Origin: Pseudomonadota bacterium
Lineage (GTDB): Bacteria > Desulfobacterota > Desulfobulbia > Desulfobulbales > Desulfurivibrionaceae
Length of the DNA stretch: 64,000 bases
Direction: 5' to 3'
Assembly: GCA_018830485.1 (NCBI GenBank)
Contig: JAHJRQ010000015.1
Location: 558,001 to 622,000 of the forward strand
Positions 4,208 through 10,509 of this stretch are shown here, piece by piece. The notes beneath the pieces were generated by a model. That model was not told where the DNA came from. It saw only the letters and a program-made list of their open reading frames with translations, and did no database searches. The position numbers were made by a program, and so were the translations under genes. The stretch's first letter is position 1. Every line of letters starts with the position of its first letter.

Positions 4208-4708
4208 CTACCCCTGCGAACAGAACAGCATCCCAAGCCCTTCCGGCAGCTCTTCCGGCCTCACCCCGATCTCCCTGGCAAAACCGTCCAATTCCTCCCT
4301 GGTGCAGTTGAGGCAGGAGCGCCGCAGCCCGGCCCGGACCTCGTCTGTCTCCTGTTGCAGGAAGCAGCGCAGGGCCTCGGCAATCTCCTGGCGCACATCC
4401 TCAACGGTCATGGTCTGACGGGCACAGAATTTTCCCAGCCGTTCCCAATTGAAGATGCACCGTTTCACCCCCCGGTAGATGCGGGCGTCCCGATTTTTCG
4501 GGTCGAGATCCCGGAGCATGATCTCCCGATAACGGGCCACCACCTGTTGGCGCAGGAGATCCAGCACCTGCTGGCCCAGGGTGAGTTGCGGTCCCTCCGG
4601 GTCTTCACAGAGATAGTAGAGGGAGGAGTGGAAGGCGATTTCCGGGATCTCCCCGGAGTGGCGGACAATGAGCAGCTCTTCCGCCAGCCAACTGTCAGTT
4701 TCGGTCAT
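4208..4708 (-). CDS. Conserved-looking hypothetical protein
   Basis: I do not recognise this family. From ATG 4708, which has GGAAGG about nine bases upstream, the product is 166 residues; an in-frame start at 4756 would add 16 residues. It is soluble and mostly helical, with four cysteines (for example in 'RCIFNW', 'KFCARQ', 'SCLNC'). The CxxC of 'SCLNCTREELDGFAREIGV' suggests possible metal binding, but no complete known motif is visible. It is convergent with the hydrolase fusion and divergent from the FlgO-type cluster. Codon use resembles its neighbours. Confidence 0.6.
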   Translation of the reverse strand: MTETDSWLAEELLIVRHSGEIPEIAFHSSLYYLCEDPEGPQLTLGQQVLDLLRQQVVARYREIMLRDLDPKNRDARIYRGVKRCIFNWERLGKFCARQTMTVEDVRQEIAEALRCFLQQETDEVRAGLRRSCLNCTREELDGFAREIGVRPEELPEGLGMLFCSQG

Positions 4709-4896
4709 GGCCTCGGCCCTTCCGCGAAAGGCGGAAAAAAATCCACCCCGGAGCACGGTGTTGTTTTTCGCAAGATATAGCTGTCATTATCGACACGCAT
4801 ACCACATGTTGTTGCCGGAGCGCTTCATTGGATCGGGCGGGGGGCTTCGGACATCCGCAAGACGCCTATCCTCTCAATTTGCATAGCATTTTTTGT

Positions 4897-5017: not shown

Positions 5018-5719
5018 ATGCAATTCCCAAGGAAATCATGCCCTGGCCGGCCTATCCCTTCTTTTTTTCCGGCGATGACACTCCTGGCCCTGCTGGTTTT
5101 TCCGGCCCCGGCCGCAGCCTTCTGGCCCTTCAGCCAGGAAAAGTCCGGCACGCCCAAGGCAGAGGCCGTTGCTCCGGCCGTACCTCCGGTGCTGACGGTG
5201 AGCGAGGCAGCCGCCCTGCGCACGGAGATACAGGGTTTGGCCAAGGAGCTGTTCCGCAATCTGGCCAATGGCGACCCGGAAAACGGCGGTCTTGATCAGG
5301 GCCTGCTGGTCTGCACCTTTGTCGAGCTGAAAAAATTGACCCGCACCTCATCTTTTGGGCGGTATGTGGCGGAGCAGTTGATGAGCGAGATGCAGCAGCG
5401 CCACTACGAGGTGGTGGAGATCCGGAAAAGCCAGGCGATCATGGTGCAGGAAAAGCGCGGCGAGTTCGGCCTTTCCCGCAATCCCGCCGAAATCGGCCAG
5501 AGCGCGGCCGCCGGGGCCATGCTCACCGGCACCTATACCCCGAGCAAGGACAGCATCGTCATCAACGCCAGGATCATCGACAACCGGAGCGCCAAGCTCC
5601 TCTCCTCGGCAACGGCTATTATCCCGAGAAATCAACTGGCCGAGGAGCTGCTGGCGGACACCGCTTCCGTGCGAATGGAAAAACCGGAGCCGCTGTACCT
5701 GAAAAAACTGGAATTGTGA
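5018..5719 (+). CDS. FlgO-domain exported protein
   Basis: The 233-residue product has an N-terminal export signal (hydrophobic stretch about residues 18-34, ending PAAAFWPF). A FlgO-type domain follows: 'LLVCTFVELKKL', 'FGRYVAEQLMSEM', then 'GEFGLSRNPAEIGQ' and 'AGAMLTGTYTPSKDSIVINARI'. FlgO proteins in Vibrio are outer-membrane proteins linked to the flagellar H-ring region, but no flagellar structural genes are adjacent here, so an envelope role outside the flagellum is equally possible. The ATG is preceded by AAGGAG. It is the first of three related exported proteins. The domain call is fairly firm; the function is inferred. Confidence 0.75.
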   Translation: MQFPRKSCPGRPIPSFFPAMTLLALLVFPAPAAAFWPFSQEKSGTPKAEAVAPAVPPVLTVSEAAALRTEIQGLAKELFRNLANGDPENGGLDQGLLVCTFVELKKLTRTSSFGRYVAEQLMSEMQQRHYEVVEIRKSQAIMVQEKRGEFGLSRNPAEIGQSAAAGAMLTGTYTPSKDSIVINARIIDNRSAKLLSSATAIIPRNQLAEELLADTASVRMEKPEPLYLKKLEL

Positions 5720-5867: not shown

Positions 5868-6650
5868 ATGAAAAAAGGAAGAAGAAAGGCGATACTCTGT
5901 TGCCTGGGGCTGGTGTTGTTCGCCGGCGCGGGATGTGTAACCGTCCAGCAGGATGCCAAGCCGGAAGGCAAGTCGGAAATCAAGGTGGCGGAGCAGGCCG
6001 GAGGGCCGGCAACGGTGGTGACGCCGGGCAAGGCCGCAGCCAATACGCCCAAGGAGAAGGGGAGCGGAACCTCTTCGGCGGAGATCCGCAGGGTGCCGAC
6101 CAGGTATAACGTGTATCAGTATATGCCCGAGAGCGCAAAAAACAGGGATTCGGAACTTCTCCTGGCAGACATGTCCAGGGAAGTGGCCGGGAAGGTCTAT
6201 TATGAGCTGCAAGGGGAAGCGGAAGGGCAGAGCCTTGCCGGCAGGATCGCTGTGGTCAATGCCGTGCCCCTTTCCGATCTCAAGCGGGATACCGAGTTTG
6301 GCCGGGTCATGGGCGAATACCTGCTCACCGATCTGGCGGACCGCGGCCTCAATGTAACGGAGCTGCGCATGGGCAAGGATATCACCATCCTTCCCCAGAC
6401 CGGAGAATTCATCCTCTCCCGGAACATCGGCGAGCTGGCGAACAAAATGCCGGAACTCGAATATGTGGTGGTGACCACCTTTGCCAATACCCGCAAGACC
6501 CTTGTCGTCCAAGGCCGCCTGGTCCGTCTTGCCGATGGGTCGGTGAAGACCTCCTGGCGCTACTCGATGCCCCTTAGCCGGGACCTGCTCGGCCTGTTCC
6601 AGCAGCCCGAAGCGCCCTATAAAATCGCCGTAAAGGGCATTGGCCGGTAA
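5868..6650 (+). CDS. FlgO-like domain lipoprotein
   Basis: The 260-residue product begins with a lipoprotein signal (MKKGRRKAI..., lipobox LFAGAGC with lipidated Cys23). After a low-complexity linker (about 24-85) comes a FlgO-like domain: 'IAVVNAVPLSDLKRDTEFGRVMGEYLLTDL', cited here as a region at about 129-158, then 'GLNVTELRMGKDI' and 'GEFILSRNIGELA'. The shared pattern with the preceding protein is FGR-x3-E-x-L followed by GEF-x-LSRN, suggesting duplication. A 148-base gap separates it from the first gene. Only 14 bases separate it from the third gene, with AGGAG between, so those two are clearly one operon. Confidence 0.72.
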   Translation: MKKGRRKAILCCLGLVLFAGAGCVTVQQDAKPEGKSEIKVAEQAGGPATVVTPGKAAANTPKEKGSGTSSAEIRRVPTRYNVYQYMPESAKNRDSELLLADMSREVAGKVYYELQGEAEGQSLAGRIAVVNAVPLSDLKRDTEFGRVMGEYLLTDLADRGLNVTELRMGKDITILPQTGEFILSRNIGELANKMPELEYVVVTTFANTRKTLVVQGRLVRLADGSVKTSWRYSMPLSRDLLGLFQQPEAPYKIAVKGIGR

Positions 6651-6664
6651 GAGGAGCCGCGCGC

Positions 6665-7207
6665 ATGAAGATATCCGGAACCGTGAAAAAAATAGTCTTC
6701 CCGATGCAGGTCATGCTGCTGGTGCTGCTCTGCGGTTTTTGGGCAAGCGGGGCCTTGGCCACGGAAAAAGAGGGGGACGGCAAGGGCGCGGCCACCGAAG
6801 GCATGCTCAGCCAGAGAAATTACGCATCGCTGCCCAATCTGATCGCCATGGTGGGCAGCGATGCCATGGAGCATCTGCACGGTTTTTTTGCAGCCGAGCC
6901 GGTGACCATCGAGCCCTTTATCGTGCTCAGTGAATTTTCAACCCGGCAGCGGGTGTCCCTGCTCGGCGCCACCCTGGCCGAGCAAATGGCCGCGGTGATC
7001 GGCAACGAGTCCCTGGCCGTGTGGCGTTCGCCGTCGGCAGGCGAGCATGAGCAGCGGGTCTCCGGGATTCTGCAGGAAGTGGACGGGTATCTGCGGATTC
7101 ATATCACCGCGGCCAATACACGGGGCGACCGGCGTTCCTATGTGGTCAATGTCGAGATGTCGGAACCCGTTTATCGGGCGCTTCATAGCTATGTTTACAT
7201 GCAGTAA
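6665..7207 (+). CDS. Exported protein, degenerate FlgO-like
   Basis: The 180-residue product has a signal peptide (hydrophobic residues about 11-30, ending ASGALA). The mature part contains 'IEPFIVLSEFSTRQRVSLLG' followed by 'ATLAEQMAAVIG', which lines up with the corresponding stretch of the two preceding FlgO-type proteins. The GEF-x-LSRN segment is missing. There is no lipobox cysteine, so it is probably periplasmic or outer-membrane associated. It sits between the lipoprotein gene and the FliM-motif membrane protein gene with short gaps, so it is probably part of the same transcript. Homology to FlgO is an inference from pattern and position. Confidence 0.6.
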   Translation: MKISGTVKKIVFPMQVMLLVLLCGFWASGALATEKEGDGKGAATEGMLSQRNYASLPNLIAMVGSDAMEHLHGFFAAEPVTIEPFIVLSEFSTRQRVSLLGATLAEQMAAVIGNESLAVWRSPSAGEHEQRVSGILQEVDGYLRIHITAANTRGDRRSYVVNVEMSEPVYRALHSYVYMQ

Positions 7208-7239: not shown

Positions 7240-9186
7240 ATGGCGGAAGAAAAATCAGGCCTTGAAATAGACGACTGGCTGGACGACCTGGCGGAAGACA
7301 CGTCCGGCGGCCGGGCGGAAGAGGCGTCCGGCGAACTGGATCAGTCCGACATCGACTCCCTGCTCGGCGGCGGAGCGGCAGCCAGCGGGCCGCCTCCGGC
7401 GAGCGGCGACGATGGCGGGGAGCTGGACCAGTCCGATATTGACGCTCTCCTGGGCGGTGGTTCCGGTCCGCCTGCTTCCTCGGCGGGTGGCGGAGAAGAA
7501 GGCTTTGCCGAGCTGGACCAGTCCGATATCGATTCCCTGCTTGGGGGCGGAGAAAAGCCGGCCGTTGCGGCCGGCGATGATTTTGATCTGGACCAGTCCG
7601 ATATCGACGGCCTGTTTGCCGGCAAGGAAGAGGAAAAAGGGGCGGATGAACCCGCCATGACCCAAGGCTTGGGCGCCCCCAGCGAGGATGATCTGGACCA
7701 TCTTTTTTCCGACATGGGCGACGATGACTCGGCCCAAGCGGAAACGGTGAGTTTTGCCGAGGTGGCGCAGGGCGGGAAGGAAAAGGCCGGGTCCGGCGCC
7801 CCCGGCGAGGAGAGTTTCGGTTTGCCGGATGGTGGCGGGTTTGATGACGATGAGTTCGATTTCGGCGACCTGCCTGATATCCCCGATGAAACAAATACCG
7901 TTGGCACAGCTCCGCAGGGAGGGATGGGCGAAGAGGATATCTTTGCCTCGGTCTCGCCAGCCGCTGTGCCGGATTTTCTTGCGGAGGCCACTATGGAGAA
8001 CAGTCGGGAAAATCGCTCTGCTTCGAGCACGGATAGTCCCTTTGCCCCACCGCCGAAAGCCGGGAATAAAAAAAACATGGCTATCGGAGCGTTCGTTCTT
8101 GTCTTGCTGCTGGGCGGAGGCGGGTATTGGTACATGATGAAAAACAAAAAGGGCGAGATGCCGGTTCTCCCGCCGCCGGTCGCCCAGGAGAAACCGGTGG
8201 CGCCGGAAGCGCCGCCGGTTGTGGCCGCTCCCATGGCCCCGGTCAATGTGGCGCCGGTGGTCAGCGAATCCCGCTGGCGCATGGCAAAACCCAATGAATC
8301 CTTGGCCATCGAGCTTTCCGGCACCGATGAAAACAACGATCCACTGAAATTTGAAATTGTTTCCCCCCCCAAGTTCGGCAGGATCTCGGGCGATCTGCCC
8401 ACAATCACCTATCTGCCCAACAAGGATTTTCCGGGGGAAGACAGCTTTGAATTCCGCGCCTCCGACGGGCAGCTTGTCAGCGATCCGGCCAAGGTTGTGA
8501 TTCTAGGGCCGGAGGATGTCGCGCCGGTGGCGGCGGAAGCAGCCCCGCCGGAAGAGCTCCCGGTGGTGACGGCGAAGAATATGTATTTCAAGACCTTGAG
8601 CACCGCACCGCTCACCATTAACTGGAAAAAGATCTGGGCCGGAGCCAATGCCGGACCCTTTGACGCCAAGGTGTCGGTGGAGATCCTCGGCGGCGCCCCC
8701 CTGCGCGGCGGACTGCACCGCCTTGACCGCGGCCGGCATCGGTATGAGCCGGACAGATATTTCGGCGGCAAGGAGGAGATCCGCTACCGGTTCAAGGCAG
8801 CCGGGGTATACTCCAAGGCCGGGAAGGTAATCATCACGGTCACCCGCAACGACAAACCCCCGGTTCTGGTCCTGGAGCCGGTGGCTGATTCGTACAGCGT
8901 GGGGGAAACCGTGGTGCTGAACGCCGGGCTGAGCAAGGATGATTCGCCGGGCGGGCTCCGCTACAATTGGGAGCAGATTGCCGGGACGCCGGTGCAACTG
9001 GAGAAGCGTCACGGAGAAGATTCGGCAGTGTCCTTTATTGTCCCCTCTTCCTTTCAAAAAGAGCACAAGCCAAGGATCGTCATCCGGGTAACCGCCACGG
9101 ACCCGGGCGGCCAGCGGTCTAGCCGGGAGATCGCCATTACCCCGGTTTCCAAGCGGCACAGCCCGCTGTGGGGGATCTCCCAATAG
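7240..9186 (+). CDS. Membrane protein with repeated FliM-like (DQSDIDSLL) motifs and periplasmic Ig/PKD-like domains
   Basis: The 648-residue protein has three parts. Residues 1-275 are acidic and low-complexity with near-identical motifs ELDQSDIDSLL (32-42), ELDQSDIDALL (61-71), ELDQSDIDSLL (91-101), DLDQSDIDGLF (116-126) and a weaker EDDLDHLF (149-156). These closely resemble the N-terminal CheY-P docking motif of FliM ('LSQxEIDALL'). Residues 280-300 form one transmembrane helix, with basic residues after it. The C-terminal part contains a tandem-95/cadherin-like domain (about 350-425, 'ELSGTDENNDPLKFEI', 'FPGEDSFEFRASDG') and a PKD/REJ-like domain (about 555-640). Topology is ambiguous, but motif-cytoplasm and Ig-periplasm is the natural reading. 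It follows three FlgO-type genes and precedes a protease gene, and a terminator lies just after it. No characterised homologue is recognised. Confidence 0.7.
   Translation: MAEEKSGLEIDDWLDDLAEDTSGGRAEEASGELDQSDIDSLLGGGAAASGPPPASGDDGGELDQSDIDALLGGGSGPPASSAGGGEEGFAELDQSDIDSLLGGGEKPAVAAGDDFDLDQSDIDGLFAGKEEEKGADEPAMTQGLGAPSEDDLDHLFSDMGDDDSAQAETVSFAEVAQGGKEKAGSGAPGEESFGLPDGGGFDDDEFDFGDLPDIPDETNTVGTAPQGGMGEEDIFASVSPAAVPDFLAEATMENSRENRSASSTDSPFAPPPKAGNKKNMAIGAFVLVLLLGGGGYWYMMKNKKGEMPVLPPPVAQEKPVAPEAPPVVAAPMAPVNVAPVVSESRWRMAKPNESLAIELSGTDENNDPLKFEIVSPPKFGRISGDLPTITYLPNKDFPGEDSFEFRASDGQLVSDPAKVVILGPEDVAPVAAEAAPPEELPVVTAKNMYFKTLSTAPLTINWKKIWAGANAGPFDAKVSVEILGGAPLRGGLHRLDRGRHRYEPDRYFGGKEEIRYRFKAAGVYSKAGKVIITVTRNDKPPVLVLEPVADSYSVGETVVLNAGLSKDDSPGGLRYNWEQIAGTPVQLEKRHGEDSAVSFIVPSSFQKEHKPRIVIRVTATDPGGQRSSREIAITPVSKRHSPLWGISQ
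7333..7617 (+). repeat. Coding repeat: four copies of a DQSDIDxLL motif
   Basis: Four copies of the 11-residue motif start about 25-30 residues apart, separated by Gly/Ala/Pro-rich linkers. The DNA of the copies is also similar (GGACCAGTCCGATATCGA recurs), indicating recent internal duplication. A fifth, diverged copy may lie at 7684-7707. Confidence 0.85.
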
Positions 9187-9212: not shown

Positions 9213-9245
9213 AAAGCCCGCTTGGAGAAAGCGGGCTTTTTTTAT
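9213..9245 (+). terminator. Rho-independent terminator after the FliM-motif gene
   Basis: AAAGCCCGCTT (9213-9223) pairs perfectly with AAGCGGGCTTT (9229-9239), with a five-base loop and a following T-run. It lies 26 bases after the stop codon, so the protease gene downstream probably has its own promoter as well. Confidence 0.9.
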
Positions 9246-9336
9246 GGCAAGAATGTGTCAAGATCCTGGCCAATGGTGTATACCTTTTCATCGGGCAATA
9301 CCGTGTTGCCCGACGATTGACCATGGGAGGGCGAGT

Positions 9337-10509
9337 GTGGAGTGTCCAAAATGCGGCCATGCGCAAGCAGGCGAACAGGAATGCGAACGTTGCGGGGTGA
9401 TTTTTTCCCGGCTCCAGAAAAAGGAGCAGGACAAGGAACTGCCGGAGGAGGTTGAAAGAGCGGCCAACGCCGCAGCGCCCACAAAGAAGTGGTCCGGGTT
9501 GGGAGGGTGGCTGCTCGCCATGGTGGCGGGGCTGCTGGCCGGCTGGTATGTGTTTGCGCCTCCGCACCAGCAAGCAGTGCCCGATGCCGGGCAACCGGCG
9601 GTTTCTCTGCAGGACTCGGGCCCGGAGGAGAGGGGCGCGCGGCAGCCCGCGCTGCCGCAAGGGTCGACGGATCAGCCGCAAATAGCCGAAGGGTTGGCCG
9701 GAAAATTGGCCGCCGCCTTTCCCGTGGGCAATGGACTGGAGCATGCCCGCAACGCCACGGTTTTTATAAAAACTCCGTGGGGGAGCGGTTCGGGTTTTTT
9801 TGTCACCCCCAACGGCTACATTATCACCAACAGGCATGTGGTGGAATTTGACGCCGCCCAATTGAAGGAATTCAAGGGCAAGGCGGACAAGCTGGCCAAT
9901 GACCTTGAGCGGGACCGGCGCAACAGGGAGGAGCTGCAGAAGCAGCTCGCCGGTATCCGGGATCCGGGGGTGCGGCGGCAGGTGGAAGAGGAGCTGCAGC
10001 GGCGGCAGGAGGCGTATGAGAAATACAGCGCCATGCACAAGGAAATCGTCGGTCAACTCGAAAGGATAGAGCGCTCCTCGTGGAGTTCCGACATCACGGT
10101 CGTCCTCATCGACGGCAGCGAATTTCCCGTGCAATCGCTGAAGATGAGCGACCGCACGGACCTGGCCCTGCTGTCGGTGGATTGCTACAACGCCCCCTTT
10201 ATCCGGGCAATAACGGACAGCCGCCGTTTCGGCCAGGGGCAGAAGGTCTATTCCATCGGCAGCCCCATGGGGTTACGGCACACCGTGACCGGAGGGATTA
10301 TCTCCGGCTACCGCGAGCACAAAGGGCGCAAATTCATCCAGACCGACGCCCCGATCAACCCCGGCAACAGCGGCGGGCCGCTGATCGACGAGCAGGGCGG
10401 CCTCATCGGCATCAACACCATGGTGCTCCGCGATGCCCAGGGGATCGGCTTTGCCGTGCCCTTTGAGGAGGTCAAGACGGAATTCGGCCAGTATTTGGGG
10501 GCATTGTGA
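9337..10509 (+). CDS. Membrane-anchored trypsin-like (S1C/HtrA-type) protease with N-terminal zinc ribbon
   Basis: I start this at GTG 9337, which has GGAGG six bases upstream; the frame is open further upstream but that region overlaps the terminator. The 390-residue protein begins with a zinc ribbon (CPKC at 3-6, CERC at 16-19), then a transmembrane helix (about 55-74) and a chymotrypsin-fold protease domain. Catalytic residues are visible as H167 ('TNRHVVEFD'), D275 ('SDRTDLALL') and S345 ('NPGNSGGPL'). A long charged coiled coil (about 174-246) is inserted between His and Asp, where HtrA proteases have only short loops, and there is no PDZ domain. The zinc ribbon would be cytoplasmic and the protease periplasmic. 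Its stop overlaps the start of hslO, suggesting coordinated stress response. Confidence 0.82.
   Translation: MECPKCGHAQAGEQECERCGVIFSRLQKKEQDKELPEEVERAANAAAPTKKWSGLGGWLLAMVAGLLAGWYVFAPPHQQAVPDAGQPAVSLQDSGPEERGARQPALPQGSTDQPQIAEGLAGKLAAAFPVGNGLEHARNATVFIKTPWGSGSGFFVTPNGYIITNRHVVEFDAAQLKEFKGKADKLANDLERDRRNREELQKQLAGIRDPGVRRQVEEELQRRQEAYEKYSAMHKEIVGQLERIERSSWSSDITVVLIDGSEFPVQSLKMSDRTDLALLSVDCYNAPFIRAITDSRRFGQGQKVYSIGSPMGLRHTVTGGIISGYREHKGRKFIQTDAPINPGNSGGPLIDEQGGLIGINTMVLRDAQGIGFAVPFEEVKTEFGQYLGAL

Follow-up and report, generated by a model that had tools for sequence, protein, structure and literature searches.

We have identified a membrane protein of 648 residues, encoded at 7240 to 9186 of the window (the whole stretch of 64,000 nucleotides that was analyzed), which carries an array of motifs resembling the CheY-docking N terminus of FliM. 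We propose that this array protein is a flagellum-linked, single-pass inner-membrane scaffold presenting a multivalent mimic of the FliM N terminus, most likely holding phosphorylated CheY (CheY-P) near the motor; we put the probability of this reading at roughly 50%. Computation establishes the array itself, the selection acting on it, the predicted topology, the co-occurrence with FliM and CheY, and the gene cluster. Coordinates below are those of the window, on the forward strand unless stated otherwise.

The protein consists of an acidic, predicted cytoplasmic tail, one transmembrane (TM) helix, and three Ig-like domains predicted to be periplasmic. Four copies of a motif of the form [ED]LDQSDID[SAG]L[LF] are spaced 25 to 30 residues apart in the tail: ELDQSDIDSLL at 7333 to 7365 (E32-L42), ELDQSDIDALL at 7420 to 7452 (E61-L71), a second ELDQSDIDSLL at 7510 to 7542 (E91-L101), and DLDQSDIDGLF at 7585 to 7617 (D116-F126). 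A fifth copy, APSEDDLDHLF at 7675 to 7707 (A146-F156), is degenerate; we regard it as a decayed copy because several orthologues keep the full SQxx[IMV]DxLF form at the same position, as APSQDDIDHLF, EPSQDDVDQLF, or VPSQEDMDKLF. The N-terminal 280 residues are 25% D/E and 4% K/R, and the sole strong hydrophobic segment is the TM helix at 8083 to 8148 (residues ~282 to 303), for which the flanking charge predicts an N-in orientation. The N-terminal flank is more positive than the C-terminal flank in 25 of the 36 family members, with the opposite in 3, and the tail is therefore most likely cytoplasmic.

The first Ig-like domain (8245 to 8502) is cadherin-like and matches Big_9 over residues 336 to 421, as do all 32 family members scanned. 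The second (8557 to 8830) has no Pfam match and forms a β-sandwich in the AlphaFold model. The third (8845 to 9144) is PKD-like over residues 556 to 634 and is likewise a β-sandwich in the model; its PKD-like match falls below the Pfam cut-off in the array protein itself, and 22 of 32 family members match at an E value of 0.01. The model of residues 334 to 648 as a whole contains three β-sandwiches with a mean pLDDT of 86, and a fold search with the periplasmic part returned generic cadherin/Ig matches only. The preliminary description of this open reading frame, with four near-identical motifs, a weaker fifth, an acidic tail, one TM helix, and Ig/PKD-like domains, is borne out in every element.

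Three further peptides are conserved. An N-terminal EIDDWL peptide (7264 to 7281), in which D11 and W13 are invariant in the family and D12 and L14 are at least 90% conserved, may be a further docking peptide. An acidic-aromatic block upstream of the TM helix (7840 to 7890; family consensus, FDDDEFDFGDLPDIPDE) joins EIDDWL as a strongly conserved acidic peptide of the tail, and the two are probably extra docking sites. The C-terminal peptide at 9148 to 9183, here SKRHSPLWGISQ, has the family form SRRQxALWxG with an invariant W, and resembles a peptide used by a periplasmic partner for binding or sorting.

When residues 26 to 160 were shuffled 100,000 times, one motif arose in 72 cases and two never did, against the four observed. 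The codons differ among the four copies, and they are therefore not the product of recent duplication; recent tandem duplication without selection was ruled out by these synonymous differences together with a low pN/pS. Across 14 close orthologues this ratio was 0.07 for the motifs, 0.46 for the linkers, 0.31 for the TM helix, and 0.29 for the periplasmic part, with a pN of 0.04 in the motifs versus 0.26 in the linkers at equal pS (0.56 versus 0.55). The motifs are the most constrained part of the array protein among the parts measured. Their number ranges from 1 to 10 among the orthologues counted, and one tail (L028) has no motif by the pattern used. In 135 motif instances from the family, in which Q is fixed by the search pattern itself, the D, L, and L/F positions are nearly invariant and I is found in 86%; the residue preceding Q is D (103 instances) or S (14 instances) in most. 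We read the D/S before Q, with D/E three places on, as a helix capping box, as in the L-S-Q-x-E of FliM.

C-ring proteins are known to carry the EIDAL(L) peptide once, at their start. CheY binds this N-terminal motif of FliM in a groove between its helices α4 and α5 (PMC6946799, PMC9126983). The FliM of the same genome starts MEQILSQDEVDALLKGISGG, so that LSQDEVDALL is to be compared with the array consensus LDQSDIDALL; the FliN of this genome has no such motif in its sequence. The helix pattern common to the array motif and the FliM/FliY peptide is L-[SD]-Q-x-[ED]-[IV]-D-[AS]-L-[LF], the array motif differing from FliM in having D for S before Q and often S-D in place of D-E. The two probably have the same ligand. 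The likeness to the FliM N terminus that had been noted at the outset holds up, in that the motif agrees with the CheY-binding peptide of the genome's own FliM and is strongly conserved. Two degenerate DNA patterns run genome-wide located the motif context in FliM and the array protein only; these patterns and the shuffling rule out a general low-complexity or lineage-wide motif, an objection that the preliminary description had itself raised. A search of the array query against PDB sequences (chains of at least 20 residues, hence without short FliM peptides) gave no match. The Pfam scan found neither PF02154 (FliM middle, CheC-like) nor PF01052 (SPOA) in the array protein or in 32 family members, and the PF01052 matches in the genome are FliN and FliM only.

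Among 58 related genomes, 49 contain a match to the protein at an E value of ≤0.001, the weakest of these matches covering the Ig domains only, and the 25 public contigs with matches come mostly from Desulfobulbaceae, Desulfurivibrio, and other deltaproteobacterial metagenome-assembled genomes (MAGs). Searches of 297 genomes sampled across the phylum detected no member of the family outside the order and, with a query combining array copies of two family members, no array there either; plasmids searched with the array protein gave Ig matches only. The array family is confined to one order, in Desulfobulbales-type MAGs.

We then compared its occurrence with that of flagellar genes in 96 genomes of the order, which were searched for FliM, for the C-terminal profile of the family (A2), for FlgO, and for the flagellar CheY. 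Profile A2 splits the genomes cleanly, 52 having E values of ≤1.2e-48 and the others, which are generic Ig matches, ≥4e-18. FliM falls into a motif-bearing kind (E value of about 1e-55; all 30 N termini read carry LSQDEVDALL) and a divergent kind (L192 to L209), of which the 18 N termini read are of the VEPILSKEEIAELL type or the VEPILSKEEIAELLAAIKSG kind, without the EID core. The array protein is present in 48 of 51 genomes with motif-bearing FliM, in none of the 22 whose FliM is divergent, and in 4 of the 23 lacking any FliM match (Fisher p of 7e-19, phylogeny ignored). Shared ancestry explains part of this co-occurrence, because divergent FliM is limited to the families f4, f11, and f12. 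Family f15 offers a comparison that is independent of this: one flagellated genome, G061, carries FliM and CheY together with the array protein, and its relatives G045, G054, G068, and G074 lack all three. An orthologue of the flagellar CheY (at least 78% identity) is found in 51 of the 52 carriers and in 3 of 44 noncarriers. The four carriers without a FliM match (G053, G064, G067, and G093; 73 to 93% complete) all hold this CheY orthologue, and so their FliM is probably missing just from the assembly.

The array protein is absent from three genomes that have motif-bearing FliM (G031, G035, and G041), and it is therefore dispensable for having a flagellum. These genomes have 2 to 3 FlgO matches, fewer than the 4 or more found as a rule, which agrees with the entire gene cluster having been lost. 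Since nearly all members of the order that retain the array protein are flagellated, it is probably an undescribed component of the swimming machinery.

Upstream of the array gene lie two genes for FlgO-domain proteins (PF17680), the first at 5018 to 5719 with a signal peptide (E value of 1.2e-35) and the second at 5868 to 6650 (E value of 6e-25) with an apparent lipobox, read directly from the sequence. They are followed at 6665 to 7207, 32 bp upstream of the array gene, by a gene for a secreted 180-residue protein; the best PDB matches to its model (mean pLDDT of 74) are LpoB C-terminal domains, at an E value of 1.4e-4, and we assign it an LpoB-like fold tentatively. All three are conserved neighbors: the gene order is maintained across the order, and the last three genes, including that of the array protein, are 14 to 32 bp apart. 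The array gene, on contig C13, lies outside the main flagellar cluster, which is on C24 and has two more FlgO genes near it. On C24 are FliM, FliN, FliO, FliP, FliR, FlhA, FlhF, FlhG, FliA, CheY, and a FliL-like protein, several of them named by eye from sequence. The FliL-like protein (L220, G000:C24:62961-63860), which adjoins CheY and matches PF03748 just above the cut-off, has a long acidic N-terminal tail similar in composition to that of the array protein; the motif is absent from it.

Downstream of the array gene, the genes for a trypsin-like protein and Hsp33 are variable, and a ribulose-phosphate epimerase gene is usually present. The trypsin-like protease, encoded at 9244 to 10509 between the array gene and Hsp33, has an N-terminal zinc-ribbon-like CPKCGH...CERCG segment and a TM segment; its gene is found at this site in the closest relatives and is missing there in distant ones, and on one contig of a LacPavin MAG (L040) it lies ~5 kb farther from the array gene, with other genes between. 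On the reverse strand, a divergently transcribed gene at 4208 to 4756 encodes a DUF7826 protein (PF25159, E value of 4e-56) that is conserved beside the FlgO genes across the order. At 71 to 1811 on the reverse strand, a gene with a GmrSD N-terminal domain adjoins a weakly HEPN-like gene, possibly as a defense pair.

In the scaffold that we propose, the disordered cytoplasmic tail would display several short helices imitating the CheY-docking N terminus of FliM. The flagellar CheY of this genome is identical to E. coli CheY at 77 of 125 residues (about 60%). It retains T87, I95, Y106, V108, K109, F111, T115, and K119, and has Q in place of K91 and K92; we take these positions to be the FliM contact residues on the α4-β5-α5 face, and most residues of that FliM-binding face are conserved. 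Each motif would most likely bind CheY-P weakly, as does the lone FliM N-terminal peptide, for which a value of 27 μM has been reported (PMC9126983). In FliM, this peptide has been described as a high-affinity capture site preceding a second binding step (PMC9126983), and a multivalent array would suit capture of CheY-P. Together, the motifs of the array could keep a number of CheY-P molecules on the membrane close to the motor, giving the C-ring a nearby reservoir or buffer. The periplasmic part would form a rod of three Ig-like domains which, with the conserved C-terminal peptide, probably engages the FlgO- and LpoB-type envelope proteins encoded alongside. CheY binding, the position near the motor, the contact with FlgO, and the reservoir role are all inferred. 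That a membrane protein has up to ten copies, is retained across the order, and rarely occurs apart from the corresponding FliM and CheY suggests an undescribed means of concentrating or buffering the chemotaxis signal at the membrane. The array protein offers a ready test case for multivalent capture of CheY-P, and is a candidate for connecting the cytoplasmic switch with the outer-membrane FlgO proteins.

The sequence data do not separate CheY from FlhG, a MinD-like ATPase controlling the number and placement of flagella; the ligand is ambiguous because FlhG too interacts with FliM through the FliM N terminus (PMC12826062). The array might dock FlhG instead of CheY, the protein acting as a HubP-like landmark that gathers FlhG, and thereby components of the C-ring, where the flagellum is assembled; the cargo concentrated at the membrane would then be the flagellar counting ATPase, and the Ig rod and FlgO proteins would anchor the landmark in the envelope. 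FlhF and FlhG are both encoded in the flagellar cluster of this genome, and acidic, repeat-bearing cytoplasmic domains on proteins with one TM helix are the hallmark of HubP/FimV landmarks (PMC8789113; PMC12918733). However, CheY binding is the better documented role of EIDAL, the gene neighborhood contains no pointer to FlhF or FlhG, and control of FlhG has no obvious need for up to 10 copies. We consider docking of FlhG the leading alternative, though an unlikely one.

It is somewhat less probable again that the motifs dock another partner or self-associate, the likeness to FliM being convergence of an acidic amphipathic helix. Identity of each copy to the genome's own FliM N terminus is only about 5 to 6 of 10 residues, and the other conserved acidic peptides of the tail, EIDDWL and the acidic-aromatic block, must bind something else. 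Against convergence, the set of conserved residues is nearly that of the FliM N terminus, including the N-cap and capping box, [SD]-Q-x-[DEN], and throughout the order the presence of the array protein follows that of motif-bearing FliM and the accompanying CheY.

Two readings would extend the CheY-binding scaffold further. The array protein might be a second target of CheY-P besides the motor, a multivalent antenna at the membrane coupling captured CheY-P to an envelope-spanning structure of Ig and FlgO domains; this is doubtful, and if true it would mean that CheY-P changes flagellar or envelope behavior outside the C-ring. The other is the receptor used in reverse of the preliminary description, which would pass the signal to its periplasmic domains. 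CheY-P bound to the tail would then change either these Ig domains or partners of the FlgO type, as a second transmembrane output of chemotaxis; the architecture (N-in topology with periplasmic Ig domains), the conserved FlgO/LpoB-fold neighbors, and the conserved C-terminal peptide are consistent with this, but a disordered tail and a single TM helix offer no evident route for a conformational change, so that we hold it to be very unlikely, a flagellum-associated scaffold being simpler because of the conserved FlgO-domain neighbors.

The preliminary description knew of no protein of this plan, and our searches agree: a limited survey of the open-access literature turned up no protein bearing EIDAL motifs in an array, and no family in Pfam or NCBIfam covers the array protein beyond its Ig domains. 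An ordinary adhesin or tandem-95 protein was rejected, as the best NCBIfam/Pfam matches touch the Ig domains only. The gliding-motility protein GltJ has an N-terminal cytoplasmic part, a TM helix, and a periplasmic part, in the same arrangement as the array protein; kinship was rejected on the NCBIfam model NF033761, which gave 16.6 bits versus a cut-off of 450, as a weak match over residues 213 to 340. We know of no CheY-docking membrane part in the Vibrio H-ring, built of FlgO, FlgP, and FlgT. The FlgO of Vibrio is an outer-membrane lipoprotein of this ring (PMC7990780); two FlgO-domain proteins are conserved neighbors of the array protein, which itself has no FlgO domain.

Comparisons can also be made with three other proteins. 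One is VC2232 of Vibrio cholerae, which we take to be MotW. It shares three periplasmic Ig-like domains, one TM helix, and a role in motility with the array protein (PMC8789113). In VC2232 a signal peptide is present, the TM helix is C-proximal, and the cytosolic tail is short and positive, with no motif array described, whereas the array protein has an acidic N-terminal tail of ~280 residues and a single strong hydrophobic segment. HubP/FimV shares one TM helix, a long acidic, repeat-bearing cytoplasmic region, a periplasmic domain, and a link to the flagellum. The array protein has neither the periplasmic LysM nor the TPR/FimV domain in the Pfam scan and ends in an Ig-like domain; its order is reversed, with the array N-terminal and the periplasmic part C-terminal, and its repeats carry a specific FliM-like motif, unlike those of HubP/FimV. 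FliM, which is soluble, belongs to the C-ring, and has CheC-like and SPOA domains, carries one copy of the peptide at its extreme N terminus, whereas the array family has 1 to 10 on a membrane protein with neither domain. The EIDAL motif and the acidic membrane scaffold of the HubP/FimV type were each known before; their combination in one protein was not.
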